This document shows positions 39,537 through 60,182 of a DNA stretch of 64,000 nucleotides, piece after piece. Each line of letters starts with the position of its first letter. The stretch's first letter is position 1. The notes beneath the pieces were generated by a model. It worked only from the letters and a program-made list of their open reading frames with translations, was not told where the DNA came from and made no database searches. The position numbers were made by a program, and so were the translations under genes. Source of the DNA: Flavobacteriales bacterium (GTDB lineage Bacteria; Bacteroidota; Bacteroidia; Flavobacteriales_D; Crocinitomicaceae); the NCBI GenBank assembly GCA_947449575.1, contig CANFRV010000016.1, positions 1 to 64,000 of the forward strand. The letters are read 5' to 3'.

Positions 39537-40490
39537 CTATTCTTTCACTTTTTGACGAATAACTTGCAAAATTTCCATCGTTGAGCTATCGTAAACATAA
39601 ATCAATAAATGCATGATTTCTGCATTAAATTGTGCGGGTAATTTATAACTATAATTCAAGTAATATTTATCGCCTGCTATTACCGCACCATTTTTGTCGA
39701 CTTTCATCAATTCAGTTAATTTTCTACCCATTGGCAAACCATCAATGCAACCTCTCATAATATCTCGGTGCACATAATTTAAATCTTCCGCTCCTAAAGG
39801 GAATTTTTGCGGGGAAATCAAAGAATCTTCCATCAAATAAACCACTTGAAATAAGTCAGCTGATGGTGTTGATGTGAGATCCACCTCCGTATGTAAAATC
39901 ATTCCTCTAGTTTCCGGAAAATAATTAGTTTTAGATTGAAGATTGACTTTCAATACATTCGCATTTAATATATTATTACTGTTGGTAGCCCAATCCGTTG
40001 AAGGATTAAACATATGTCCAGCAATCGTTTTTCTATTTGTTGTACCGGCAGGATTCGAACTAAAATTAGCATCAATAGCAGCCAAATCAACCGCGATTTG
40101 AAGTCCAGTTGGATTTGTGAAATTCTGAGTATATGGCGCAAAATCAAAATCTTGTTGAGTTCCACTCGTTCCCCCTGATGGACTTGCATGTATCCCCGCA
40201 ATAAAAACTCTACCCGGGTGCAAAGCCTCAAAATCTTCAGCAAGGGTGGTTGCTGCGGGACAATAAATACATCTATGGCCAGTAAAATCCTCAATTAAAA
40301 CATTTACAAGTGTGTTTGTATTTTCTGAAAATGTGGGCCATTTGGTATTTTTATATTCCACCAAATCCATTCCATACAGCAAAGTCGTATCAATATCGAT
40401 AAATTGCTTTGGATAAGGATTACTGACTTTATCGCACGATTGAAAGAATAGCGCTGAAATTGCAATTATTCCAAAAAAAATCTTTTTCAT
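39537..40490 (-). CDS. Omp28-like lipoprotein with CxxC thioredoxin-like motif
   Basis: A 317-residue lipoprotein: signal MKKIFFGIIAISALFFQSC with lipid-modified Cys19. The mature part contains LIEDFTGHRCIYCPAA, a CxxC (Cys74, Cys77) in a thioredoxin-like setting as in the Omp28-related outer-membrane family. The ATG at 40490 is chosen because it gives the lipobox; a frame extending 25 codons upstream has no signal. It is the third gene of the TlpA - DUF6029 - Omp28 operon (17-bp gap). The role is unknown; the shared cysteine motifs suggest thiol-disulfide exchange at the outer membrane. Confidence 0.85.
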   Translation of the reverse strand: MKKIFFGIIAISALFFQSCDKVSNPYPKQFIDIDTTLLYGMDLVEYKNTKWPTFSENTNTLVNVLIEDFTGHRCIYCPAATTLAEDFEALHPGRVFIAGIHASPSGGTSGTQQDFDFAPYTQNFTNPTGLQIAVDLAAIDANFSSNPAGTTNRKTIAGHMFNPSTDWATNSNNILNANVLKVNLQSKTNYFPETRGMILHTEVDLTSTPSADLFQVVYLMEDSLISPQKFPLGAEDLNYVHRDIMRGCIDGLPMGRKLTELMKVDKNGAVIAGDKYYLNYSYKLPAQFNAEIMHLLIYVYDSSTMEILQVIRQKVKE

Positions 40491-40507
40491 ACTTCTTATA
40501 ATTAATA

Positions 40508-42175
40508 TTAGAAACTTTGCGTAAATGACAATGTCAAACCATTCATAGCAGGCACAGCTCTGCAAACACCTCCTACACAGAATAATCCTGCCCTTTGTCT
40601 ACCAACGGATAAGGTAAATCGAGTAGACTCATGCACATAACCCACAGTACCAATAACATAATGGATTCTTAGTTCGTCAATAGGATTCCCATAATTATAT
40701 TGATCCATGAAACCAACAAACCAATTAGATTTATAATTGTATTCAAGAACAACAGTAGCCCAATCACCTTTATCTCTTCCTTTTCCCTTGTTAGTAATCA
40801 ATTCTTGAACTTCCATTCTAAGGGAGTGACTTTTATTGATTTTGTATCCCATTTCTATAACGCCAATATGCGAAGTGATCACTCCAGTTGCGTTTTCCGT
40901 AATTGTACTGTAGTCATTATTCATTTTAATATCAAAATAATTTAAAATCATATTAAATGACTTACTGAATTTTTTAGAAATATTAAAATTAATATCCTGC
41001 CAAAACAACGTGGAACTCATGTCAAAAGGTGTGCAAGAATACATTATTCCTGTCGAATCAAGTGGATTAAATCCTGTTGTCACTTGCCTTGGTTTGTAAG
41101 CAGTAGAAAAATTTCCATTTAAAGTAGTTCCATATTTACCCCCTAATTTCGACCCTTTCTTAATGGTGTAAATAACCTCTGTTTGATACGCAATTTCACC
41201 ATTCAACTGAGTTGCATAAGGATAAAGAGAAGCGACCAAATTGTAGGTATGTGTTTTATTCATTGAAGGCAGGTAATTAATCAAATCCACCTGCAATTTT
41301 TGATCTCTGTTGGAACGATAACTCATATTATCAACCGATTTACCAGAAACAGAAATTCCGAATCCTGTTTTAGAATAACCAATGTTGAATAGAGCCGCAT
41401 GACCTTTATTAAAAATAAATTTATTATCTAAAGAAGGGTCATTTTCTTTGATTGAATATTCTGCATCAACTACTAATTTGCCATACCTCATTTTCAGACG
41501 ACCGCCATAGCTGCCCACGTTTTCAGGAAGAATTAAATTATCTTTATCATCTTTTTGATATTTACTAACAAAAGATCCCCCAAAAGTAAGATCAAATTTC
41601 TTTTCTTTCATGCATTTGAAAGCTTCATTGAAATGAATTTCTCCATCAATTCCTCTAACAATGCCAGAAGTTACAACCACTTGTCCATTGGTAAAAGCTT
41701 CCCGTTGTCGACCATATACCGATTTAATTATCACGCCAGGAACAGGACGTAAAATTAAACGCATTCCATCCATTGCGTTATCATATCCTAAAGCTCTATT
41801 TTCATAGGCTCTAAACAAAGATCCTTGACCAAATTGTTCGTAAAAATTTCCAATTGTCACATCTACCAAATTATTTACATACCCAATATATCGCATGCCG
41901 ATTCCAGTGCCACTAAAAACAGTAGGATAACCATTAATATGCGGAGAATAGGATTCAAATCTACCCCCAGCTTTAAATCCCTTGTTGGTATAAAAAGCAT
42001 TCATATATGTGTTCATTAATGCTTTTTCTGGAGGTAATTCAGCGCCAATCAATGAATCAGCTCGTAAATATTGGAACGTACTTTCAATATTTCCTGTCAA
42101 TGAACCTTCATTATTCTGCGAGAAAACAACAAAGGAGATTGAAAAAATACACAATGAAATAATTTTTTTATACAT
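40508..42175 (-). CDS. DUF6029-family outer-membrane beta-barrel protein
   Basis: A 555-residue protein with a signal peptide (residues 1-20, ending VVFSQ) and alternating aromatic strand segments throughout, ending in LSFTQSF with a C-terminal Phe as in outer-membrane barrels. Motifs such as GNFYEQFGQGSLFRAYENRALGYDNA match my memory of the uncharacterised Bacteroidota family DUF6029. A Cys pair, Cys533 and Cys538 (FCVGGVC), sits near the last strands. It lies between TlpA (19-bp gap) and the CxxC lipoprotein (17-bp gap), so this pair may be a substrate or partner of theirs. Confidence 0.82.
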   Translation of the reverse strand: MYKKIISLCIFSISFVVFSQNNEGSLTGNIESTFQYLRADSLIGAELPPEKALMNTYMNAFYTNKGFKAGGRFESYSPHINGYPTVFSGTGIGMRYIGYVNNLVDVTIGNFYEQFGQGSLFRAYENRALGYDNAMDGMRLILRPVPGVIIKSVYGRQREAFTNGQVVVTSGIVRGIDGEIHFNEAFKCMKEKKFDLTFGGSFVSKYQKDDKDNLILPENVGSYGGRLKMRYGKLVVDAEYSIKENDPSLDNKFIFNKGHAALFNIGYSKTGFGISVSGKSVDNMSYRSNRDQKLQVDLINYLPSMNKTHTYNLVASLYPYATQLNGEIAYQTEVIYTIKKGSKLGGKYGTTLNGNFSTAYKPRQVTTGFNPLDSTGIMYSCTPFDMSSTLFWQDINFNISKKFSKSFNMILNYFDIKMNNDYSTITENATGVITSHIGVIEMGYKINKSHSLRMEVQELITNKGKGRDKGDWATVVLEYNYKSNWFVGFMDQYNYGNPIDELRIHYVIGTVGYVHESTRFTLSVGRQRAGLFCVGGVCRAVPAMNGLTLSFTQSF

Positions 42176-42194
42176 ACCTATATTTTAACGTTAT

Positions 42195-42713
42195 TTAATT
42201 CGTTTTCTTAGCAACTTTTAGCAACTCTTCATATAATTTATCTTCATCTCCTGGAGCGTAATTATTATGCGAATACACAATAGTTCCATCCGTATCAACT
42301 AAAAAAGTATGAGGAACGTTATTTACTCCCATTGCTCTTTTAAAATCTCCATTTGGATCCATTAGCACAAGATATTCCCAGCTTTTTCCATCTACATAAA
42401 CTGGAACTCCACTCGCTGTTTTCATATCATCAATCGATACAGCAACCAAATTTACTCCTGTTTCTGCCTGCCAATCTATATATAAATCATGAATTGTATT
42501 TAATTCTCGTTTACAAGGAGAACACCAAGTCGCCCAAAAACTAAAAATTACAGGACCTTTAAAACCTAATTCTGCCGTATTGACGGATTTCCCATCCATG
42601 GTCTTTAATTGAACGGCAGGGATTTTTTTTCCTTCATCCACTTTATGTTCCTCTTGAGAGAAAGAAGAAATGGTAAGCACTAAACTCAAAAATAATACTA
42701 CTGTTTTTTTCAT
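42195..42713 (-). CDS. TlpA-family periplasmic thiol-disulfide oxidoreductase
   Basis: A 172-residue exported thioredoxin-fold protein: signal peptide of 20 residues (ISSFSQ), then the active site FWATWCSPCKRE with Cys64 and Cys67, and the cis-proline loop NNVPHTFLVDTDG. TlpA/ResA proteins reduce or exchange disulfides in envelope proteins. It is the first gene of an operon with a DUF6029 barrel and a CxxC lipoprotein, and is divergent from a cysteine-containing T9SS cargo gene. An exact -7 box lies about 55 bp upstream. Confidence 0.93.
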   Translation of the reverse strand: MKKTVVLFLSLVLTISSFSQEEHKVDEGKKIPAVQLKTMDGKSVNTAELGFKGPVIFSFWATWCSPCKRELNTIHDLYIDWQAETGVNLVAVSIDDMKTASGVPVYVDGKSWEYLVLMDPNGDFKRAMGVNNVPHTFLVDTDGTIVYSHNNYAPGDEDKLYEELLKVAKKTN

Positions 42714-42767
42714 AATTTCCTATTTTATAAATTGCGATTTTCACTCGTTCAAAATCCTTGCCTGAGT

Positions 42768-42775
42768 CAAAGATA
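42768..42775 (-). promoter_or_regulatory. -7 box of the TlpA-DUF6029-Omp28 operon
   Basis: Exact TATCTTTG on the minus strand, 54 bp before the start codon at 42713; no -33 match at normal spacing. Confidence 0.4.
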
Positions 42776-42948
42776 AAATAAAATTCATTGTTATATCACG
42801 TTATAATAGAATATACTATTGTAATCCTAACATGCTTCTTCCTTCGTTTTATTAATATATAATAATGTAAATCAAATATTTAACTAATAAACAAAGCATT
42901 TAATTATTGAATTACAGATAATTATACAATCTACTAATCTTTATGAAA

Positions 42949-42983
42949 TTTGTTTTTTTAAACAGAAAATTATACTATATTTG
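42949..42983 (+). promoter_or_regulatory. Bacteroidota-type promoter of the 242-residue T9SS cargo gene
   Basis: TTTG at 42949-42952, 23-bp spacer, exact -7 box TATATTTG at 42976-42983, 28 bp before the ATG at 43012. Confidence 0.55.
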
Positions 42984-43011
42984 TTTTGCATATTATTATA
43001 CACATCCATAA

Positions 43012-43740
43012 ATGAAAAAAATATTACTAAATTCAATTGCTATTTTAGGATTTGCTGCCGCTGGTCTTTCGCAGGATAATATCACGATGAAAATTGTTGG
43101 CGATGCTGTAGATTATTCTTCTGGGCATTCACCATATATTAGAACTGTTTCAGCTGCTGGTGTAGTTGATTTTGATATTGATGTGGTAAACACGACTGGC
43201 GCTGAAAAATCATGGAGATTAACAAGATTAAATGAGGCAAGTGTTCCTTCCGTTTGGTCAACAACTATATGTGCTGGAGTATCTTGTTTTCCTCCATCAG
43301 CAGACAATCCATATTGTTCACCCGCTGCCTTATCACAACAATTGGTTGTTGCAAATGGTGATACTGGAATAATTGCTTTTCATTCTACTGTTACGACAGC
43401 TGCCACTGGAACATATAGAATTTATGTAGGTGACTGCGCAACGTATGATGATTCTATGGATATTCAAATTGTTAGTTCAGTTGGAATAAAAGAAGTGAAG
43501 CAGTACCCAAACTTTTCTATTTTTCCTAACCCCGCAGATGAAGCTGTAAATATTCAATTGAACAACAGTAAAAATGGAACGATAAAAATTATTGATCTTG
43601 TTGGAAATATTGTTTATTCAGATGATTTTGGTATGTCCTCTAAAGTAAATGTATCAGAATTTAAAAACGGAATTTACTTTGTAATGATTGAAGCTGAAGG
43701 TATTAAGCTTTCTAGCAGGAAATTAGTGGTAAGACATTAA
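43012..43740 (+). CDS. Secreted T9SS cargo protein with four cysteines
   Basis: A 242-residue protein with a signal peptide (residues 1-20, AAAGLSQ), an immunoglobulin-like beta domain (about 22-155) and a type A T9SS sorting domain starting at FSIFPNPADEAVNIQL and ending GIYFVMIEAEGIKLSSRKLVV. The mature N-domain holds Cys87, Cys92, Cys102 and Cys142, likely two disulfides. I do not recognise a specific function. It is divergent from the TlpA operon and ends in a strong terminator. Confidence 0.85.
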   Translation: MKKILLNSIAILGFAAAGLSQDNITMKIVGDAVDYSSGHSPYIRTVSAAGVVDFDIDVVNTTGAEKSWRLTRLNEASVPSVWSTTICAGVSCFPPSADNPYCSPAALSQQLVVANGDTGIIAFHSTVTTAATGTYRIYVGDCATYDDSMDIQIVSSVGIKEVKQYPNFSIFPNPADEAVNIQLNNSKNGTIKIIDLVGNIVYSDDFGMSSKVNVSEFKNGIYFVMIEAEGIKLSSRKLVVRH

Positions 43741-44661: not shown

Positions 44662-46215
44662 ATGGAAAGAATAAAGACTGTTTTATTTTTATTGTTGTTT
44701 TCACCTTTCATTTTGTTTTCACAACAGAATTTATTACCTATAAGTTCCTATTTTAAGGATAAACTATTTTCTCCCTTTAATGCTACTTCTTTTTCCAATG
44801 GCTCTTTTTTGCCGGTGTGTGAAAGTGAGATTAATTTAAATGCAAAATTAGCAGATTCATCCAAGCAATATTATTTCTTCTCAACCGCTTTAATTAAAAA
44901 ACATTTGGTAGAGATAAAAGGACCCGACTACTATCTAACGATTTCTCCAACTCTTGAGATTTCGTATGGTGAAGATAAAGGGGACACCATTCCATCTAGA
45001 AAATTTCAAAATACGCGTGGATTTCATATAGAAGGCGATCTTTTTAAAAACTTTTCCTTTTCTACTTCATTTTATGAAAATCAAGCTCGCTATACCAATT
45101 ATGAAAGAGCCTATTACATCTCACTCGGGGAGTTTTATCCGCAATATCTCGGTTATGCCAGTCAAAACGCTGTAATTCCAGGTGCTGGAAGAACAAAACC
45201 TTTCAAAGGGGATGGATTCGATTTTGCGTATGCCATTGGCAATGTTGTTTATTCTCCGAGTAAAAATATTAAAGTGATTACGGGTAATAATTCTCATTTT
45301 ATAGGTTCTGGATATAGATCATTACTGCTCTCAGATAACAGTGTAAATGCTCCTTATTTTCAAACAAACATAAAGATTTCTCAAAAATGGAGTTTTATTT
45401 ATATGCGAGAACGTTTAATGAACTTAATGAGAAGACCTTTTACAACTAGTGATGAATCCTACTATGAACCAAAAGCACTTTCTACGAACTACCTTACGTA
45501 TCAAGCTTCGAAAAAATTAAATATTAGCGTATTTGAAGGAGCAATTTGGAGTAAAGGAGATTCCATTAAATCAACGAAGGTCAATCCTCTTTTTTATAAT
45601 CCAATTCCGGGTATTTCTGAAATCTTAGTCACCAATAAAAATACTATGAGTTCGCTAATTGGTATTAATTCCGAATATCTTTTTACGTTAAAACATCGTA
45701 TTTATAGTCAAATTGCCATGAGTAATTTCGACACTAAAAACATTGGATTTCAACTTGGATATAGAGGTTACAATTTTGTAAATCTAAAAAATTTCCTCTT
45801 GCAACTCGAATATAATAATGTGCCCTCGCAGTTGTATGCTTCTTCGAATCGGAGATTAAATTACAGTCATTATAATTTACCATTAGCGCATACCAAAGGA
45901 AATGGGTTCCAAGAGTTTATTATTAGAAGTAATTATGAATATCAACGATTTTACATTGATGTGAAAATCATTATTTATAAATTAGAAGGTTTTAAAAGTG
46001 GATCAATACTCGCTGTAAATAAAAATTCTGCACCACATTCAGGTCAATTGCAACACGAGCAAATTGAAGTTGGATATAGATTTAATCGAAAAATGAATTT
46101 AACTCTCTTTGGGTCTTATACCTATAGAAATGACACCTCTAGTTCCTCTTCTATTACTAAATTTTTTAATATAGGTATTCGAACAGTTTTAATTAATCAT
46201 TATAACGATTTCTGA
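44662..46215 (+). CDS. Wzi/RemB-like outer-membrane beta-barrel protein 1
   Basis: A 517-residue protein with a signal peptide (residues 1-20, ILFSQ) and amphipathic strands throughout, compatible with a large barrel. The block ITGNNSHFIGSGYRSLLLSDNS is shared in form with the next gene, and resembles the capsule-assembly Wzi family and the related gliding protein RemB of flavobacteria. Wzi anchors capsule at the surface; RemB is a gliding-related surface protein. Which role applies here is unknown. It overlaps the next gene by one base (TGATG) and follows cysQ by 1 bp. Confidence 0.72.
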   Translation: MERIKTVLFLLLFSPFILFSQQNLLPISSYFKDKLFSPFNATSFSNGSFLPVCESEINLNAKLADSSKQYYFFSTALIKKHLVEIKGPDYYLTISPTLEISYGEDKGDTIPSRKFQNTRGFHIEGDLFKNFSFSTSFYENQARYTNYERAYYISLGEFYPQYLGYASQNAVIPGAGRTKPFKGDGFDFAYAIGNVVYSPSKNIKVITGNNSHFIGSGYRSLLLSDNSVNAPYFQTNIKISQKWSFIYMRERLMNLMRRPFTTSDESYYEPKALSTNYLTYQASKKLNISVFEGAIWSKGDSIKSTKVNPLFYNPIPGISEILVTNKNTMSSLIGINSEYLFTLKHRIYSQIAMSNFDTKNIGFQLGYRGYNFVNLKNFLLQLEYNNVPSQLYASSNRRLNYSHYNLPLAHTKGNGFQEFIIRSNYEYQRFYIDVKIIIYKLEGFKSGSILAVNKNSAPHSGQLQHEQIEVGYRFNRKMNLTLFGSYTYRNDTSSSSSITKFFNIGIRTVLINHYNDF

Positions 46216-47675
46216 TGAATTGGAAATTACTAATAGCACTTTTTGTAACGCACCTGAGTTTTTCTCAAGTTGAAGTTGGCTTATTGTATGAGGAAATGCC
46301 CAATGATTCGATCGAAAAGGCTTCCATCACAAATCATTCCTCCATTAGACCTTTTATTCGCACCACCAATCTTGCTGCAAGTGCCTATTCTTCTTCCGTT
46401 CGAGGTTTTAAAGATACATTACCAAAGCTACTAATTACTCCCCTTTTTGATGCAGGAATTAAAATAGATGATGCCCTATCTTCCAGAACAGGATTAGGGG
46501 TGTCACTATCTAGTATAAAATATTCAAAATGGTATTATAAAATTTCTGTAATTGAGGGATTTGGGGAAGCAAAAAATGATCGATTTCAGCCGAAATCTTT
46601 TATTTTCCAACCCAAAACAGGCGATCAATTTATATATACCGATATTAGAGGAAGAGCATCCTACACTCCTAACAAAGTTTTCAATTTTCAAGCAGGAATT
46701 GATCATAATTTTATTGGGGAGGGGAATCGATCATTATTATTGAGCGATTATGGGAAACCATACCCATTTGCTAAAATTAGGGCGGCTTTTTGGAAAGTTG
46801 AATATATGATGTTGTATCAATTTTTTCGTGAGGAGACACCGAAGAAAGAATGGAAATCTAAATATGCCGCTACTCATTTAATAAGTTACAATCCAACAAA
46901 GTGGTTAAATTTCGGTATTTTTGAATCGGTCGTTTTTGCGCCTAAGGACACGAACCTAAATAGAGGTTTTGATGCAGAATATTTAAATCCAATCGTTTTT
47001 TTCAGACCTCAGGAATATTCTTTGGGTTCTTCAGATAACGTATTACTAGGAGTGCTTACTTCTATTAAAATCAAACAACATACTATTTATAGTCAAGTAA
47101 TTATCGATGATTTTGACCTTTATCAAATTAAAAACAGAACGCAGTGGTGGGCGAATAAATACGGGGCTCAATTGGGCGTAAAAGGGCGATTTAAGTATAC
47201 TAATAAGAACTTTTTCTACCGGTGTGAATTTAATTTTACTCGACCGTATACATACTCGCACAAGACTTCAAGTCAAAACTATGCCAACGAAGGATATTCT
47301 CTTGCGCATCCCTATGGTAGTAATTTTTATGAAATTTTAGGAGAGCTGAAATGGCAAAATAAAAAGTGGACTCTAAAAGTTTTTGCCAATTACTTTATGC
47401 ATGGTGCTGATAAAAAAGATGGTTTAAGTTACGGAGGTGATATCTATGCTTCATACGATACACGTCCGCATGAATTTGGAAATACGATTGGACAAGGAAT
47501 CAAAAATAATGGCGTAAGATTGATGTTTACCACTTCATATTTACTTGACAAAGGCTCTAATTTGCAAGTATTCATGGAGCATCAACTGCGGGGAAATACA
47601 GCCTATTCTCAGCCAGTGTATCAAATTGTTGTTGGGTTGAGGAGTTGTTTATGGAATGATTATAGAAATTACTAA
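46215..47675 (+). CDS. Wzi/RemB-like outer-membrane beta-barrel protein 2
   Basis: A 486-residue protein with a short signal peptide (residues 1-17, THLSFSQ) and a barrel-like strand pattern. It shares with the preceding protein the block AGIDHNFIGEGNRSLLLSDYG followed by a Phe/Tyr-rich strand, and the closing pattern VVGLRSCLWNDYRNY (compare IGIRTVLINHYNDF). The pair are therefore diverged tandem paralogues. Translational coupling through the TGATG overlap suggests equal expression and possibly a shared complex. It converges on the helicase gene. Confidence 0.72.
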   Translation: MNWKLLIALFVTHLSFSQVEVGLLYEEMPNDSIEKASITNHSSIRPFIRTTNLAASAYSSSVRGFKDTLPKLLITPLFDAGIKIDDALSSRTGLGVSLSSIKYSKWYYKISVIEGFGEAKNDRFQPKSFIFQPKTGDQFIYTDIRGRASYTPNKVFNFQAGIDHNFIGEGNRSLLLSDYGKPYPFAKIRAAFWKVEYMMLYQFFREETPKKEWKSKYAATHLISYNPTKWLNFGIFESVVFAPKDTNLNRGFDAEYLNPIVFFRPQEYSLGSSDNVLLGVLTSIKIKQHTIYSQVIIDDFDLYQIKNRTQWWANKYGAQLGVKGRFKYTNKNFFYRCEFNFTRPYTYSHKTSSQNYANEGYSLAHPYGSNFYEILGELKWQNKKWTLKVFANYFMHGADKKDGLSYGGDIYASYDTRPHEFGNTIGQGIKNNGVRLMFTTSYLLDKGSNLQVFMEHQLRGNTAYSQPVYQIVVGLRSCLWNDYRNY

Positions 47676-52829: not shown

Positions 52830-55800
52830 TTACTGTACCTTTTTTATGGAAGTACCGTCTTCAAAAAGAACAATGACAATTCCTTTGTAATTTTCATCTA
52901 TTTCTTGACCTAGAATGTTCATTGTTTTCACAACCACTATACCAGTATTTTCTCTATTATCAATTGATACTATGTCGGAGATTTTTTCTGCTCCGTCGGT
53001 ATCTGTTTGTTTCAAACGATAATAATTAAGGGTTTTTCTAACATCATAATCAACTAATGAATATTCCAAAAGGGAGGAAGAATTACCTCCACCATTCATT
53101 TTCCCTACTATTTCATAGCTAGTGCCATCCAACGTTTTTTCAAGGGTATAGTAATCACAATTCTCTTCTGTTATTGTGCTCCAGAACACGACATTATTTT
53201 GACCTTGTTTTTTTGCATCAAAACTGACAATACCTATTGGAAGATTAACAAATTCATCACCAGCGGCACTAAATAAACTGAAAGTAGTTAAACCAGACCA
53301 TGTTAAGGTATTAGAAGCTAAATCTACTGTTCCTGCACCTTGCGCTGTTGCAATCGAAAAATGAGCTCCTTCTGGTTTATACCATGTGTAAGAACTTAGT
53401 CCTGTTAAACTTCTTTTCACTGGGAAAAAATTGGTTTCAACTCCATTTATATCAGCAGTTGCATATGTGTAACTAACCGAATAGGTTGGTGATGCTATTC
53501 CAGATGGTGTTAAATCCCAATATCTATCTAGGTACGATACTAAGCTGCTATTGATAGAAGGTATACTTGCTGGGTTAGTGTAAATAGTAATAAAGGCATT
53601 TGACAAAGTTGCACTTGCAAGTGTAAAGGTCATCGGTGTATAGGCATCAAGATCCCCGATTGGTAAAGTATAAATCGTTGATGCGGCTGTATTCACAAAT
53701 CGTTTTAAAGTCCCTGTTGATGAGCCACTTCTATAAGCAACAATATACGAAGAGCTACTTCCTCCTACAATTTCCCCATTGAAAGAATTATTTCCGATTG
53801 AAAGTGTTTTTGTACTACTAACAATGAGTTTACCATCAGATAGTGTCAAGGTTCCTATGACAGTTGCATCGCTATTAATTGTAACATTCTTTGTGTTATT
53901 TATGGTTACATTTCCAAACGAAGTAGTCGCTGTTCCTCCAATCGTTTGATTTGCTACTCCCACAAAATTAAAAGTTGAAGTAGCAGCTGCACCTAGTGTT
54001 CCATTATTGGTAAAATTGTCTGCTAGATTCACTGTCGCTCCAGCGTCTACTGTTAAGGTAGCACCATTTAAGATCGTTAAGGAATCGATTGACACTGTTC
54101 CGGAAGAAACAGTTGGTTGGTTGAACACACATGAACCTATTTGAGATATTACAACACTTGAAACACTTGTTGGAGCCACGTTAGCAACTGAGTAACCACT
54201 GGCATTATATTTATACCAGTTACTCACATTCGTGAATTCACTATTCACAATCCCATTCCAAATATAATCTCCCACATAACTAGTCATACTTCCTAGAGAT
54301 GGAGTCGAAACTGTAACTGCTGTTGATCCAGAGGTTGCGATGCATCCATTCGCATCGGTTACCACTACACTATAATTTCCAACTGTATTTATAGAAATAC
54401 TTGCAGTAGTTGCACCTGTATTCCAAAGATAAGAGCTTCCTGCTGAAGATGTTAATATAACGCTTCCTCCTAAACAATAGGTTGCTGAAGGTCCATTTGT
54501 TATGGATGCTGTTGGTAAGGAATTATTGGTAAGAACTACTGTAGAAGCAGATGCTGTGCATGTTCCATTACTAATCGTCCATGTTAACGTTGCACTTGTT
54601 CCTGCAGTGATACCAGTTACTCCTGAATTGTATGCTGTTGGTGTTGTGATCGTTGCTGTTCCTGATGTAACCGTCCATAAACCAGTTCCTATACTTGGAT
54701 TATTTCCTGCTAAAGTAAATGAGGAGGTATTACATTGGGTGATTGCTGAACCTGCAACTGATGTTGTTGGCATGGCTGCAATTGTTACAGAAGCTGGATT
54801 ACTAGTTGCATTTCCACAACCACTTCCAGAAGCCGATACAACGCAATAGTAGTATATTGTTCCAGCACTTGTACTTGGAGGTGTATAAGATGTGCTTGTA
54901 GCACCTAAAATTGAAGTTCCTGATGTATTATTATTTAAGACAGTACTCCACCATTGATATGTCAAAGATGGCGTTCCATTAATTGCTGTTACGGATAATG
55001 CTGCATTCCCATTTATGCATTCCGTAATAGGGGAAGGATGAACCGTGATGGCAGGATCAGCCACAACAGTGTTCGCTTTAGGACTTGAAGTCACTGAAGT
55101 ACCACATGCATCAGTTGTGACACATGTATAAGAATAGGTGCCAGCAGAACCAAATGCAGTGCCATTGTAGGTCAATGCGGTTTCTCCTACAATACTGCTT
55201 CCATTCAATTTCCATTGATAAGTGTATGGAGACAAACCAGTTACTGGTGCAGCAATTGTGAGCGAGGCAGGATTATACCCAACACAAACTGATAATGCAG
55301 TGGTGTTATGTGTTCCTGAAATTAATGTAGAGGGCATACTCACCACCCAACTTCCTGTTGATTGAGTAAAGGTTGAACTGCATGTCACATCTTTTGCCCA
55401 ACGAGTATAAGTTGTTGCAACAGTCAAACCTGAAGCTGGATCGTATGTGGCGCTGTTTGAAGAAGGGATGTCTACGCCATTGGCTTGCCATTTATACGTA
55501 AAACTTGCATCTCCACCATTGGCTGCAATTGAACTACCGATAACTCCAGGATTCCCTCCTGAACAAATCGTTTCACCAGTTGTGAGTATCGCTCCAGAAG
55601 TAAATTGCGAAAGAACTGTGACACTAAACGTTTGAACAGCACTGCTTGCGCATGAATTAGCATTATTTACAGTAATTGTTCCTGTGTATGTTCCCGGCGC
55701 AGTACCCGCAGGAACAGAAATAGTGATCGAACCTCCACTTGATGTACCTGCAAATGTAGCATTAGTAACCGCTGTAAAACTATTCGATGGGGAAGCATTC

Positions 55801-58800
55801 CAACTTATACTATATTTTGTTGGTGAGTTGCTAGTTGCACTGTAAGAAAGAGATGTTGTTTGAATACTTGCACTGTAGCAAACATTAGTTGCAGTACTTG
55901 CCCATGTTGCTGTTGGTAATGGATTGACAGCAACTACCGTGCTTGCCGAAGCAGAGCAACCACCTGTATTCGTAGCTGTTAATGTATATGTACCCGCCAT
56001 TGCTGTTGTAGCATTAAGTATACTTGGATTTTGCTCTAAACATACTGCAGTGATTGTAACATTATCTATACTTCTTTCATGAGCCCCACTTGCTCTGGTA
56101 TCAATAAATTTTATATAACGCGCACCTGAATAACTACTTAAATCTATTTGTGCAATTGAGCTACATGTTTGCGCAACAGTTGAGCCTCTTGTTGCGACCG
56201 TAGTCCAAGGTCCAGATGTTTGACTGCTAGGAGATGCAGCACTGATTTGTACATCAAAAGCCCAAGATGTTGCATCATTACTTCTTTCAATACTGCAATT
56301 TAAAACTCCAGGATTAGTTATTAAAGGTGTAATTGCAAATTGATTAGCAGCATTAAATAGCACTCCTGAGCCCGAGCATGCCTGCGCAGTGCTAATTGTT
56401 GCACTTGAAAGTGACCAACCTGTTAGTGTTCCATCAAAATTTTCAGAAATAGACGCCCCAACAGTACCTGATAGAGAGTAACTATTCGGTCCACTCCATG
56501 CATAGGTGCTTATTACAGAAGATGGACCACCTGTTAATTGTATTGTTCCTCCTACACAATATGGCCCTCCGTTGCTAGCTGTTGTGAGCGGAAGTGCGAT
56601 GAACGTCTTTGCACCGCTTGCAGCTGCCGAACCAGCGGTCGTTGCTGTGGTAGTAATATCAGTAGATGAAGAAGCACTAACTTGAATGGTATTTGCATCT
56701 ACTGCACCTGAAGCAATATCAGTAGTGATCCAAAAATAACCTGTGGCATTTCCAATTGCTTGAGAAAATGCTGCAAATGAATGTGATCCACTGCCTAAAC
56801 TTGTGGTTATGTCCGTTCCGACTTGAATTGCTGATGAAAAAACATTGGTTGCACAGTTCCATAATTGATACTTGGTAACATCTGTAGCAGTATTGGTTGT
56901 TGTAAAATTAAAGTTAGTGAGTGTTCCTCCGCCATTTGAACCTGTTATATTAAAGGCATGAATAGGAACTTTCAGTGAAGAACCACATACACTTGTTGCC
57001 GTGACGGCTGTGGTTGCGTTTGCTACAGTAAGAGTTGGCGAAGAAGAAATAATAACCGCAGATACATAGCCCATAACGCTAAAATCTGCTGCAGTAGAAG
57101 CAGTACCATCATAAAATGCGAAAGTTCCGGAGGTTGCACTGCTTGCGCCATAACCTACAAGTCTAAAAGTAACCGTTGTTGTTGAAGGTACATTCTGAAG
57201 CCCTGTTATAGAACTTAAATCTATACTAGCTAATGAATTTACGCCAGTCGAAGGAAAAGTAACATCTGCAAAACTGGTAAATAAACTACCATTTAAACTA
57301 TATTGCCATTGTCCATCAGTCGGTCCAGTGCCATTTGAATAAAATTGATATGCAGGTATATTATTAAAAGAGACTTCATAATTTAATTTTGGAGCTATAG
57401 TAAAAGATAGATAAGAATTTGCGGTTACCGCAGCTGCAACAGTTGTTGAAGCCCAATTATACCCCCCCCATTCTTTACTATAAGTGGCACCCGTAGTAGA
57501 AACACCGCTGCCTCTCGTAAGAGCACCTACCGTAACATTAGCGTTAGCTACAGCTGCTGGCGCAGCTCCAGTCATGGTAGAAGTTGAAAAATTCCAAGTT
57601 GCCAATCCTATTGGAACCAAAGAAATAACAGTATTTGAACTTGCAGTAGCACCTGTTAAAGCTCCCGAGGAAGCAGTAATCGTATAGGTTCCAGCACCAT
57701 CAAATTGCGCTGCAGCAAAAATTGCCACACCAGCAGTAGCAGCAAAAGTAGTTCCTGTTAATGCACCTGAACCACTAACAATCGTGCTTCCTAAAGTAAT
57801 ACTTGCAACATATTCAGCATCTACAGAATTATCTGCTCTTTGAGCCTGAACTGTAAAAGAAGCAAGATCAGTCGAAACAGTCCCAGAAGTTGGCGGCGCA
57901 ACACTAAATACTAATTTAGAAGCCACAGCTAAGGTAGTAAAATCCGTAGCAGTACCATACGTATAGGTGGTACCATTATACACATACGCTTTATAAGTAT
58001 AAGTAGTAGCAGGTGTTAAACCAGTTAAAGCTTTTAAATAAGTTCCTGTAGAACCTAAAGTTACTGTGCTTTGTGTTACACCAGTTCCCGAAACTAAAGG
58101 ATTAGCGTTAGTGCTCTTTATAGCATAAACAAATCCTTTCTCACTAGTAGCCGGACATACACCTGCAGAACTATAGTTACCGTTAAGAGTAGCAGTTGTA
58201 TTTACAACCAGCGTAGCGGCAGATGTTGTTACCGCCTGAGTAACAGGTGTAGTTCCTACACCCGTTGGTGTATTTGCTACTGAGGTAACTGAAGTTCCCG
58301 AAACTGTTACTGTTGATGATTTTGGACCAGAGCTTGAAGGAGTAAAAGTAACAGTATAAGTAGCAGTAGCTGCGGCTGCTATTGTTGAAGATGACATACT
58401 ACTTACCACAAACTGTGCATCGCTTGATGCTACTGAAACACCTGAAACAGATGTTGCTCCATTATTAGTTACAGTATAAGTTACAGCGCTAGCAGGCACA
58501 TTTGGACATACTGTTCCATTATCAAGCGTACCACTTATTGAAAGTGCATCTAAAGTTGTAAAAGTGATTATTGGAGTACTATACGTATACGTTGTTCCAT
58601 CATAAACATAAGCTTTATAACTATAACCTGACGAGGAAGCCAAACCAGTTAAAGCATACGTATAAGCTCCTGTAGAACCTAATGTTACAGTAGATTTTGT
58701 TACTCCTGTTCCTCCAACTAAAGGGTTATTGTTTGTACTTGTTAATGAATATACAAACCCCTTCTCTATTGTGGCAGGGCAAACCCCTAACGTTGTATAA

Positions 58801-60182
58801 TTACCATTCAGTGTTGCAGATTTAGCCGTTATAGAAGTAGCACTAGATGAAGTTACTGCTTGGGTTACAGATGCTGTGCCGGTGCCGGTTAAAGAGCTGG
58901 TTGTGGCAGATGAACTTGTATTATAATAAACGGTGATGGTTGCACTTTTTGCTCCTGAACTTGTTGGAGTAAAAGTAACATCATAGGTGGCAGTTCCACT
59001 TGTAGCGGCAATGTTAGTTGAAGACAAATTACTTACTACAAATTGCGCATCACTTGAACTAACCACAACACTAGATGCTGCTGCACCCGTATTGGTAATA
59101 GTATATGTTTGTTTTGTAGCTGCGGTATTAATACAAGAACTACCGTGTGCAAGGGTACCTGTAACTGCTAGTGAAGGAGTGCTTCCAGCTGAAGTAATTT
59201 GATTATTAGGATTATTTGTTCCTGTAGAGGTAAAATAATTAATTGAAGCAGAAGTAGGAGTTGTGTTATTATCACTATTATATTCAAATATTTGAAAATA
59301 ATAAGTGGTACTTGCTAACAAATTTGTTAAAGAAACAGAATTTCCTGTTCCATTATAAATGCAATAATATCCTGATGTTCCAAGTTGACTTCCTTTAGAA
59401 CTCCAATCTGAGCTAGCGGTATATGCAGTTCCATCGCTTGGATTTGTTATTGCACCAGAACCTGCCTTCATAAAAACAGCTCTTCTTCCAGCATTTCCAT
59501 TTGTCCAACTAGCAGTCATTGATGTAGTTGAAACTGGTGAAAAAGAAATAGAAGTAGCTTGAGTTGTTGGCTCTGCAGTAGTTACTGAAAAATTATCAAC
59601 ATAAATTACGGAGGCTGTTCGATATATCTGAACTTTAGTAATCGTTACATCATTAACTGTAATAGTTCTTAGTTGAAAAGTATTTGTAGATGAAAATGTA
59701 GCAGTAAAAGGCGAGCCTGTTGCTGCTGACCAACTAGTACCATTCCATAGATTAACTTGGTATGCTCCACCAGTACTGCTTGAAGCAACATAAAAAGATA
59801 TAGTACCTACCCCTCCTACAAGTGTTGGGGTAGTTATTTGTGACCCTGTTGATGACCCTAGTTGAGCAGAATTAGTTCCAGCGTACTTTGTAGTACCTGC
59901 TAATACAGATGTTAAACTCCAAGTACCGGAAGTCAGAAGATAATTACCGGTTCCATAACCTGAAGGCATCCCAGTACCACCAGTTGTTGATGAAGTGGTA
60001 GTCCCTTCAAAGGTTTCTGATAACTGCACCTGACCCCACCCCACATTCCCCGAAAGCAAAGCAAAAACCACCGCCACTGCAGCACTAGCTTTCTTAAATT
60101 TAATACATGTACTTTGAGAAAAGAGAGCTGTTTTTATTGAAAAACGTAGCCGAATAAAAAACTTTTGTAATCCTGTTTTCAT
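52830..60182 (-). CDS. Giant repetitive surface protein (Ig/FN3-like repeats)
   Basis: A 2450-residue, Ser/Thr/Gly/Ala-rich secreted protein. The N-terminus has an unusually long basic region (about 34 residues) before the hydrophobic signal core (AAVAVVFALLSGNVGWGQ). Then come a jelly-roll-like domain (about 50-200), an FN3 domain (205-325), two copies of a 200-residue unit (336-543 and 546-749), many Ig/PKD-like beta domains, and a stretch with beta-helix-like strands (about 2035-2130). The C-terminal 140 residues (VSFDAKKQGQNNVVFWST onward) end in MNILGQEIDENYKGIVIVLFEDG, which lacks the usual PNP start of T9SS sorting domains but keeps the LGQ and end strands. It is likely a T9SS-exported adhesin or matrix protein; function not known. 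Monocistronic. Confidence 0.85.
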   Translation of the reverse strand: MKTGLQKFFIRLRFSIKTALFSQSTCIKFKKASAAVAVVFALLSGNVGWGQVQLSETFEGTTTSSTTGGTGMPSGYGTGNYLLTSGTWSLTSVLAGTTKYAGTNSAQLGSSTGSQITTPTLVGGVGTISFYVASSSTGGAYQVNLWNGTSWSAATGSPFTATFSSTNTFQLRTITVNDVTITKVQIYRTASVIYVDNFSVTTAEPTTQATSISFSPVSTTSMTASWTNGNAGRRAVFMKAGSGAITNPSDGTAYTASSDWSSKGSQLGTSGYYCIYNGTGNSVSLTNLLASTTYYFQIFEYNSDNNTTPTSASINYFTSTGTNNPNNQITSAGSTPSLAVTGTLAHGSSCINTAATKQTYTITNTGAAASSVVVSSSDAQFVVSNLSSTNIAATSGTATYDVTFTPTSSGAKSATITVYYNTSSSATTSSLTGTGTASVTQAVTSSSATSITAKSATLNGNYTTLGVCPATIEKGFVYSLTSTNNNPLVGGTGVTKSTVTLGSTGAYTYALTGLASSSGYSYKAYVYDGTTYTYSTPIITFTTLDALSISGTLDNGTVCPNVPASAVTYTVTNNGATSVSGVSVASSDAQFVVSSMSSSTIAAAATATYTVTFTPSSSGPKSSTVTVSGTSVTSVANTPTGVGTTPVTQAVTTSAATLVVNTTATLNGNYSSAGVCPATSEKGFVYAIKSTNANPLVSGTGVTQSTVTLGSTGTYLKALTGLTPATTYTYKAYVYNGTTYTYGTATDFTTLAVASKLVFSVAPPTSGTVSTDLASFTVQAQRADNSVDAEYVASITLGSTIVSGSGALTGTTFAATAGVAIFAAAQFDGAGTYTITASSGALTGATASSNTVISLVPIGLATWNFSTSTMTGAAPAAVANANVTVGALTRGSGVSTTGATYSKEWGGYNWASTTVAAAVTANSYLSFTIAPKLNYEVSFNNIPAYQFYSNGTGPTDGQWQYSLNGSLFTSFADVTFPSTGVNSLASIDLSSITGLQNVPSTTTVTFRLVGYGASSATSGTFAFYDGTASTAADFSVMGYVSAVIISSSPTLTVANATTAVTATSVCGSSLKVPIHAFNITGSNGGGTLTNFNFTTTNTATDVTKYQLWNCATNVFSSAIQVGTDITTSLGSGSHSFAAFSQAIGNATGYFWITTDIASGAVDANTIQVSASSSTDITTTATTAGSAAASGAKTFIALPLTTASNGGPYCVGGTIQLTGGPSSVISTYAWSGPNSYSLSGTVGASISENFDGTLTGWSLSSATISTAQACSGSGVLFNAANQFAITPLITNPGVLNCSIERSNDATSWAFDVQISAASPSSQTSGPWTTVATRGSTVAQTCSSIAQIDLSSYSGARYIKFIDTRASGAHERSIDNVTITAVCLEQNPSILNATTAMAGTYTLTATNTGGCSASASTVVAVNPLPTATWASTATNVCYSASIQTTSLSYSATSNSPTKYSISWNASPSNSFTAVTNATFAGTSSGGSITISVPAGTAPGTYTGTITVNNANSCASSAVQTFSVTVLSQFTSGAILTTGETICSGGNPGVIGSSIAANGGDASFTYKWQANGVDIPSSNSATYDPASGLTVATTYTRWAKDVTCSSTFTQSTGSWVVSMPSTLISGTHNTTALSVCVGYNPASLTIAAPVTGLSPYTYQWKLNGSSIVGETALTYNGTAFGSAGTYSYTCVTTDACGTSVTSSPKANTVVADPAITVHPSPITECINGNAALSVTAINGTPSLTYQWWSTVLNNNTSGTSILGATSTSYTPPSTSAGTIYYYCVVSASGSGCGNATSNPASVTIAAMPTTSVAGSAITQCNTSSFTLAGNNPSIGTGLWTVTSGTATITTPTAYNSGVTGITAGTSATLTWTISNGTCTASASTVVLTNNSLPTASITNGPSATYCLGGSVILTSSAGSSYLWNTGATTASISINTVGNYSVVVTDANGCIATSGSTAVTVSTPSLGSMTSYVGDYIWNGIVNSEFTNVSNWYKYNASGYSVANVAPTSVSSVVISQIGSCVFNQPTVSSGTVSIDSLTILNGATLTVDAGATVNLADNFTNNGTLGAAATSTFNFVGVANQTIGGTATTSFGNVTINNTKNVTINSDATVIGTLTLSDGKLIVSSTKTLSIGNNSFNGEIVGGSSSSYIVAYRSGSSTGTLKRFVNTAASTIYTLPIGDLDAYTPMTFTLASATLSNAFITIYTNPASIPSINSSLVSYLDRYWDLTPSGIASPTYSVSYTYATADINGVETNFFPVKRSLTGLSSYTWYKPEGAHFSIATAQGAGTVDLASNTLTWSGLTTFSLFSAAGDEFVNLPIGIVSFDAKKQGQNNVVFWSTITEENCDYYTLEKTLDGTSYEIVGKMNGGGNSSSLLEYSLVDYDVRKTLNYYRLKQTDTDGAEKISDIVSIDNRENTGIVVVKTMNILGQEIDENYKGIVIVLFEDGTSIKKVQ
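57937..59176 (-). repeat. Two tandem copies of a ~610-bp coding unit
   Basis: Within the giant surface protein, 58555-59176 and 57937-58547 encode two copies of a roughly 200-residue unit. Each has a choice-of-anchor-D-like half (SSDAQFVVS..., VTFTP.SSG.KS) and an FN3-like half (ATLNGNY, GVCPAT.EKGFVY, STVTLGSTG.Y, Y.YKAYVY.GTTYTY). They differ at many positions but keep the same order, so they are an older duplication. Confidence 0.75.

Follow-up and report, generated by a model that had tools for sequence, protein, structure and literature searches.

What a thioredoxin-fold protein, an outer-membrane β-barrel and a lipoprotein accomplish when they are encoded side by side is the question raised by a tight minus-strand run of three genes in a 64,000-nucleotide stretch of DNA from a Flavobacteriales bacterium (positions 1 to 64,000 of contig CANFRV010000016.1, assembly GCA_947449575.1; hereafter the window). 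The run encodes a TlpA, a DUF6029 barrel and an Omp28 lipoprotein, with intergenic gaps of 19 nt between tlpA and the barrel gene and 17 nt between the barrel gene and omp28, and its divergent neighbour encodes a cargo of the type IX secretion system (T9SS; Table 1). The original prediction, made from the sequence alone, had TlpA and the lipoprotein forming or reducing a disulfide in the barrel, and the open reading frames (ORFs), gaps, cysteine positions and families that it named were each borne out by ORF, residue and Pfam checks. We propose, with slightly less than even confidence, that the three genes encode a single envelope system by which thiol reducing power reaches the cell exterior.

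The gene unit is conserved across Bacteroidota, and the cysteine pair of its barrel is invariant. A draw of 296 genomes from the phylum contained a DUF6029 match at E ≤ 0.001 in 80, the window's own genome included, with 78 above the cut-off. To these survey loci, two of which come from a single genome (G180), we added 56 close loci from named genomes, which may share species with the survey genomes. The closest named relatives of the barrel belong to Crocinitomicaceae/Fluviicola and related Flavobacteriales genomes. A co-oriented TlpA with a CxxC motif lies immediately upstream in 53 of the 56 close loci, the remaining three (L080, L092 and L106) starting at contig ends, and in 62 of 79 survey loci, with a divergent TlpA in five more; among the other 12 it is one gene off or in an overlapping ORF in three (L149, L153 and L170). 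TlpA is likewise upstream in 35/35 further loci, which comprise 15/15 new ones from one search and 20 places that we chose from another. More broadly, a thioredoxin-fold protein is encoded within 2.6 kb of the barrel in 77 of the 79 survey loci, all but L123 and L154, of which L154 is interrupted by a contig end. Unbiased single-linkage clustering of the neighbours at 114 loci returned the barrel in 114 and a thioredoxin-like family in 111, and the next family reached 20. AhpC-TSA matches 16 places in the 3.5 Mb of the window's own genome, from which we estimate, assuming one gene per kb, that chance would put a TlpA-like neighbour beside roughly half a percent of genes, counted per side. At one locus (L111) a single frame holds TlpA and the start of the barrel. 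Several loci (L065, L076, L080, L089, L098, L114 and others) encode barrels 57-75% identical to that of the window; the titles of such records (Chryseobacterium gleum, Chitinophaga pinensis, Glaciecola amylolytica, Actinomyces viscosus) look wrong for the DNA.

The evidence that draws attention to the barrel itself is its cysteine pair. Cys533 and Cys538 are kept in 130 of 130 intact aligned homologues, 77 of 77 of them from the survey. The full alignment held 137 barrels (the window, 56 from the close loci and 80 from the survey), from which seven rows were removed: L196, which lies under the Pfam cut-off and is without the pair; L076, L105, L114 and L116, which run into contig ends; L142, in which a frameshift alters the frame near the barrel C-terminus; and L143, truncated by an early stop. 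Identity to the window protein falls to 13% among the aligned barrels, and only five columns are invariant (G530, C533, G536, C538 and G546). Mature cysteines beyond the pair are absent from 98 of the 130. Counted back from the C-terminus, the pair occupies places 23 and 18 in 126 barrels, the window's among them, and places 24 and 19 in the other four. The C-x4-C pair is also present in all 35 of the further loci. In some survey loci, for example those of G183, G143 and G046, the Pfam model matched only through stretches that stop short of the C-terminus and the pair is still there, so that detection by the model did not depend on the pair in these loci. Recurrence of the cysteine pair and of the gene order over the phylum rules out chance or a local oddity. 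The original prediction had looked to co-occurrence of tlpA, DUF6029 and omp28 in other genomes and to conservation of the C-terminal cysteines; the unit with an Omp28-type thioredoxin does recur, and the pair proved invariant in the intact aligned and further homologues alike.

To place the pair within the barrel we relied on a predicted structure. The protein matches DUF6029 (PF19494) at 572.6 bits against a cut-off of 27, over model positions 1-538 of 538. An AlphaFold2 model made from the window and 43 of the 56 close barrels (predicted local distance difference test score, pLDDT, 82.5; predicted template modelling score, pTM, 0.78) has 24 strands by our count of its strand list, short turns joining them on one side and long loops on the opposite side. 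The cysteine hairpin (530-541) connects the last two strands, so that the pair is predicted to stand before the last strand. As a rule, the C-terminus of such outer-membrane barrels is periplasmic and, if this rule holds, the pair would be at the outer end of the pore. Fold matches are generic, to usher pores and large porins with OprC among them; the usher match (FimD/PapC) has Z 17.5 over 368 residues at 4.1 Å, and porins reach 16 too. These matches are consistent with a wide pore and with nothing beyond that.

Given this predicted position, the Cys533-Cys538 bond could be structural, stapling the last hairpin of the pore, with TlpA and Omp28 editing it during folding. LptD likewise needs correct disulfides. 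A staple would be plausible in a loop ahead of the last strand, and TlpA is the most constant neighbour of the barrel. However, a staple need not outlast nearly all other residues at 13% identity, and the T9SS-sorted thioredoxins and the DsbD/CcdA genes found in the unit (see below) would be left unexplained; we regard a purely structural or assembly role as unlikely.

The lipoprotein encoded after the barrel carries the C-terminal Omp28 domain (PF11551; 52.7 bits, cut-off 34.9) and scores 114.3 bits against the Omp28 lipoprotein subfamily model NF033782, under its curated cut-off of 150. Its AlphaFold2 model, made from the window and 49 Omp28 sequences (pLDDT 92.3), shows a thioredoxin domain with Cys74-x-x-Cys77 just ahead of a helix, followed by a β-sandwich. 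Cys74, Cys77, Pro78 and Pro147 are present in 50 of 50 aligned Omp28 sequences, the window's included, and we take Pro147 to be the thioredoxin cis-proline. The top structure match is HBP35 of Porphyromonas gingivalis (5y1a; Z 24.2, 225 residues, 2.4 Å). On the strength of this model Omp28 is a thioredoxin with the HBP35 fold, and the earlier suggestion that the RCIYC-bearing lipoprotein is a thiol-redox protein is upheld by motif, model and structure match together. As side observations, the NCBIfam 'Omp28-related selenoprotein' model gives a weak N-terminal match (20.9 bits against a cut-off of 200), which fits a redox role for the family, and one genome without an SprA_N match (G230, locus L138) has TlpA, a paired-cysteine barrel and an Omp28-type protein of 689 aa.

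The passages of PMC2907840 used here describe a surface form of HBP35, alongside shorter cytoplasmic forms, and thioredoxin activity dependent on its two cysteines; they state the physiological role of its thioredoxin domain as unknown. HBP35 and the window Omp28 have the two-domain fold and the CxxC motif in common, whereas HBP35 is sorted by the T9SS and the window protein is a lipoprotein: Por_Secre_tail was not matched in the latter, which has a lipobox cysteine instead. Both forms accompany the barrel across the phylum. A thioredoxin bearing a T9SS sorting domain is encoded in the fetched region of 39 of 79 survey loci, and 35 of the 79 encode, near the barrel, one that fits a loose lipobox pattern; 12 loci have both forms and 17 carry neither label, although several of these 17 do have Omp28, the lipobox pattern being loose and missing some. 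The T9SS-sorted thioredoxin directly follows the barrel in several loci (L164, L165, L167 and L175), and in the clade of 18 loci designated f23 (L176 and L178-L194) a frequent order is TlpA, barrel, thioredoxin lipoprotein and T9SS thioredoxin (L185 and L188). Occupation of one place by both the lipoprotein and the T9SS-sorted form speaks for a protein that acts outside.

The window TlpA matches AhpC-TSA (75.4 bits, cut-off 26) and Redoxin (74.6, cut-off 26.6) and, with its WCSPC motif, is TlpA/ResA-like; it scores 91.3 bits against the strict ResA model NF002854, under the curated cut-off of 170, and its closest solved relative by sequence is 2m72_A (E 1.1e-41). The barrel probably has TlpA on one side and a surface-type thioredoxin on the other. 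With this arrangement, a pair that supplies the only conserved cysteines of the barrel and the occasional presence of DsbD or CcdA, a reductive relay is the simplest reading. DsbD or CcdA in the inner membrane would reduce periplasmic TlpA, which would reduce the C-x4-C disulfide near the end of the outer-membrane-spanning DUF6029 barrel. From the barrel pair the electrons would go to a thioredoxin at the surface, which would be the Omp28 lipoprotein in the window and, in other clades, a thioredoxin sorted by the T9SS. This thioredoxin in turn would reduce targets outside, among which the conserved cysteine pair of the adjacent Ig-like T9SS cargo is plausible; neighbouring genes in one clade hint at iron acquisition. 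We infer redox activity, its direction, the topology and passage through the barrel from gene linkage and motifs, and we read the barrel pair as an intermediate of the relay rather than as the gate or client that the original prediction had in mind.

The direction of the relay is suggested by the genes that join the unit. DsbD and CcdA are inner-membrane proteins that export reducing power from the cytoplasm. DsbD is encoded after the barrel in L117, L251 and L252, and CcdA ahead of TlpA in L161, L264 and L271, with Pfam confirmation for L117 and L161 only; their presence in the same run points to reduction, not formation, of disulfides. Were the direction opposite, the unit would import oxidising equivalents for periplasmic disulfides in place of DsbB or VKOR. 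Counts in 75 genomes that we picked from the 296, spread over families, have some bearing on this: VKOR was matched in 2 of 35 genomes with DUF6029 and 16 of 40 others, and DsbB in 0 of 75, while DsbD_TM, present in 75 of 75, is uninformative. The CPHC motif of the clade f23 surface thioredoxins, which is DsbA-like, would also suit oxidation. Yet the inner-membrane proteins linked to the unit are the reductive donors DsbD and CcdA, and VKOR is also absent from 24 of the 40 genomes without DUF6029, in a comparison that uses genomes of our choosing and ignores kinship. An oxidative role is, in our estimation, improbable.

Several observations nonetheless weigh against the reductive relay. DsbD or CcdA in the gene run is rare, at 6 of 170 loci in two separate groups, and TlpA is not beside the barrel in 9 of 79 survey loci. 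The scarcity of VKOR in DUF6029 genomes could also be explained by an oxidative role. The tip of the cysteine hairpin (residues 534-537) is poorly modelled, with pLDDT below 50, and if the hairpin does lie outside, as the model and the C-terminus rule would have it, the access of TlpA to the pair is unexplained. Finally, by a criterion for surface export of lipoproteins taken from part of PMC12578637, at least two acidic residues follow the lipid cysteine in 27 of 50 Omp28 sequences, and the window protein has one. The passages of that paper used here, on the Bacteroidota β-barrel assembly machinery, make no mention of Omp28, TlpA, thioredoxin or disulfide.

The reductive relay assigns a function to the barrel itself. 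DUF6029 would be an outer-membrane thiol conduit, its invariant pair taking electrons from TlpA and passing them to surface thioredoxins, a proposal that we hold with somewhat less than even confidence. Clients of this conduit would be T9SS-secreted proteins with conserved cysteine pairs, and some clades would use it for reductive acquisition of iron or haem. The barrel might alternatively be a channel for a small thiol, a metal or haem, with the pair as a ligand or filter held reduced by the thioredoxins. Clade f23 lends itself to this, with an iron-repressor gene near the unit in 11 of its 18 loci, a TonB receptor in 9 and FeoAB in one (L188), and OprC appears in the fold matches, alongside many other large barrels. 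HBP35, moreover, binds hemin, and its mutant grows poorly without hemin, according to passages of PMC2907840. Against this, iron-type neighbours do not recur beyond clade f23 and the fold matches are generic, which leaves the channel a rather poor prospect. In their own right, the iron-dependent repressor, TonB and FeoAB neighbours of clade f23 are a lead for a role in iron acquisition there.

A candidate client of the relay is encoded divergently from tlpA. The window cargo matches Por_Secre_tail (54.7 bits, cut-off 27) and TIGR04183 (47.4 bits, cut-off 23), which identifies it as a T9SS type A cargo. A model of its Ig-like domain, built from the window cargo, recovered 105 copies across the fetched loci (88 distinct, since the copies include loci fetched twice), and the two cysteines of the domain are present in 102 and 105 of the 105. 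In the window they are Cys87 and Cys92, spaced C-x4-C, and the spacing differs elsewhere; of the four cysteines for which the cargo was originally singled out, these two prove to be the conserved pair of its domain. Of the close loci, 49 of 56 have the Ig-like domain, against 19 of 79 in the survey, so that the cargo is a frequent, not a constant, companion. At L149 one protein joins a thioredoxin domain, this Ig-like domain and the sorting domain. Further along the window (52830-60182) lies a 2450-aa frame rich in similar Ig-like stretches, the product of which is probably secreted or at the surface.

The secretion system raises one more possibility, namely that the barrel anchors the T9SS track through a mixed disulfide between its pair and GldK/PorK, in the manner of the SprF and PorG twin cysteines. 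Disulfides between SprF/PorG and GldK are described in passages of PMC12635249, and SprA_N is matched in 79 of 80 genomes with DUF6029 and 149 of 216 others, kinship being ignored. In the same passages, however, the C-x-C of SprF is in a periplasmic C-tail, whereas the C-x4-C of the barrel stands ahead of its last strand, and G230, without an SprA_N match, keeps TlpA, the pair and Omp28. We consider this anchor very improbable and, with kinship ignored and G230 as an exception, do not use the T9SS association as evidence for the relay.

Two other contexts were rejected on the neighbourhood of the unit. PMC9603273, the sole open-access paper found that names DUF6029, describes it, in the part used here, as a candidate polysaccharide porin from its similarity to Wzi-type barrels. 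CysQ and two Wzi-like genes follow the unit in 24, 29 and 28 of the 56 close loci and in only 0, 0 and 7 of the 80 survey loci, which speaks against polysaccharide export; CysQ and Wzi-like are our own labels, and the Wzi-like pair is without a Pfam match. In contrast to the polysaccharide role, no polysaccharide family recurs phylum-wide beside the unit among the clusters listed. In the window the corresponding tandem pair of barrel-like genes (44662-47675), which has no Pfam match and which we read as Wzi/RemB-like, lies after a gene of the CysQ-like inositol-phosphatase family. SodB, Nfu and Mrp adjoin the module in the window and might have indicated an iron-sulfur or oxidative-stress context, but this is not conserved: of the 56 close loci, three have Nfu and Mrp and none has SodB, and the count is 0 of 80 survey loci for all three. 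Coordinates of the unit and its cargo are given in Table 1; the mechanical ORF of the lipoprotein begins earlier than the ATG used there, at a TTG at 40565 within the barrel gene.

Table 1. Positions in the window of the three-gene unit, its cysteine motifs and the divergent cargo gene.
Feature	Position	Strand	Description
tlpA	42195-42713	(-)	172 aa; periplasmic thioredoxin-fold protein with signal peptide, no lipobox seen
tlpA WCSPC codons	42513-42524	(-)	Cys64/Cys67
DUF6029 outer-membrane β-barrel gene	40508-42175	(-)	555 aa; PF19494 match
Barrel C-x4-C codons	40562-40579	(-)	FCVGGVC, Cys533/Cys538; between the last two strands (predicted)
Omp28 lipoprotein gene	39537-40490	(-)	317 aa from ATG; predicted thioredoxin domain and β-sandwich; lipobox Cys19
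Omp28 CIYC codons	40260-40271	(-)	thioredoxin motif Cys74-Cys77 (RCIYC)
Divergent T9SS cargo gene	43012-43740	(+)	242 aa; Cys87/92/102/142; Ig-like and sorting domains

These data suggest a route by which thiol reducing power crosses the outer membrane and reaches the cell surface in some Bacteroidota. To our knowledge, the established view is that thiol-reducing pathways of Gram-negative bacteria end in the periplasm. This is where the reductive pathways that run from DsbD/CcdA to TlpA, ResA or CcmG end; the window TlpA is of this kind, with DsbD/CcdA linked at the 6 of 170 loci described above. Unlike those pathways, the unit adds an outer-membrane barrel with paired cysteines and a surface-type thioredoxin. 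Extracytoplasmic thiol reduction is a known kind of process and, if it is true that the barrel itself carries electrons, this would be a new kind of conduit, a thiol counterpart of the porin-cytochrome conduits and an outer-membrane continuation of DsbD. Bacteroidota place many proteins on the cell surface, thioredoxins such as HBP35 included, and the unit offers a concrete, testable answer to how surface thioredoxins are re-reduced, as well as an initial proposal for what DUF6029 and the Omp28 proteins with a thioredoxin domain do. No description of the TlpA-DUF6029-Omp28 unit was found in open-access papers, searched mostly at listing level.

Among described systems, SprF and PorG are also Bacteroidota outer-membrane barrels with a functional conserved cysteine pair, as passages of PMC12635249 report. 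Their C-x-C motif is in the C-tail and linked to GldK, whereas DUF6029 has its C-x4-C ahead of the last strand and thioredoxins for neighbours. No Msr family recurs among the neighbour clusters listed at the unit. The closest working parallel to the proposed relay is the pneumococcal CcdA-Etrx-MsrAB2 system, for which the part of PMC3914529 used here likewise describes a CcdA-type donor that serves surface thioredoxin-fold lipoproteins and, through them, the reduction of surface clients, across a single membrane and with no barrel step.

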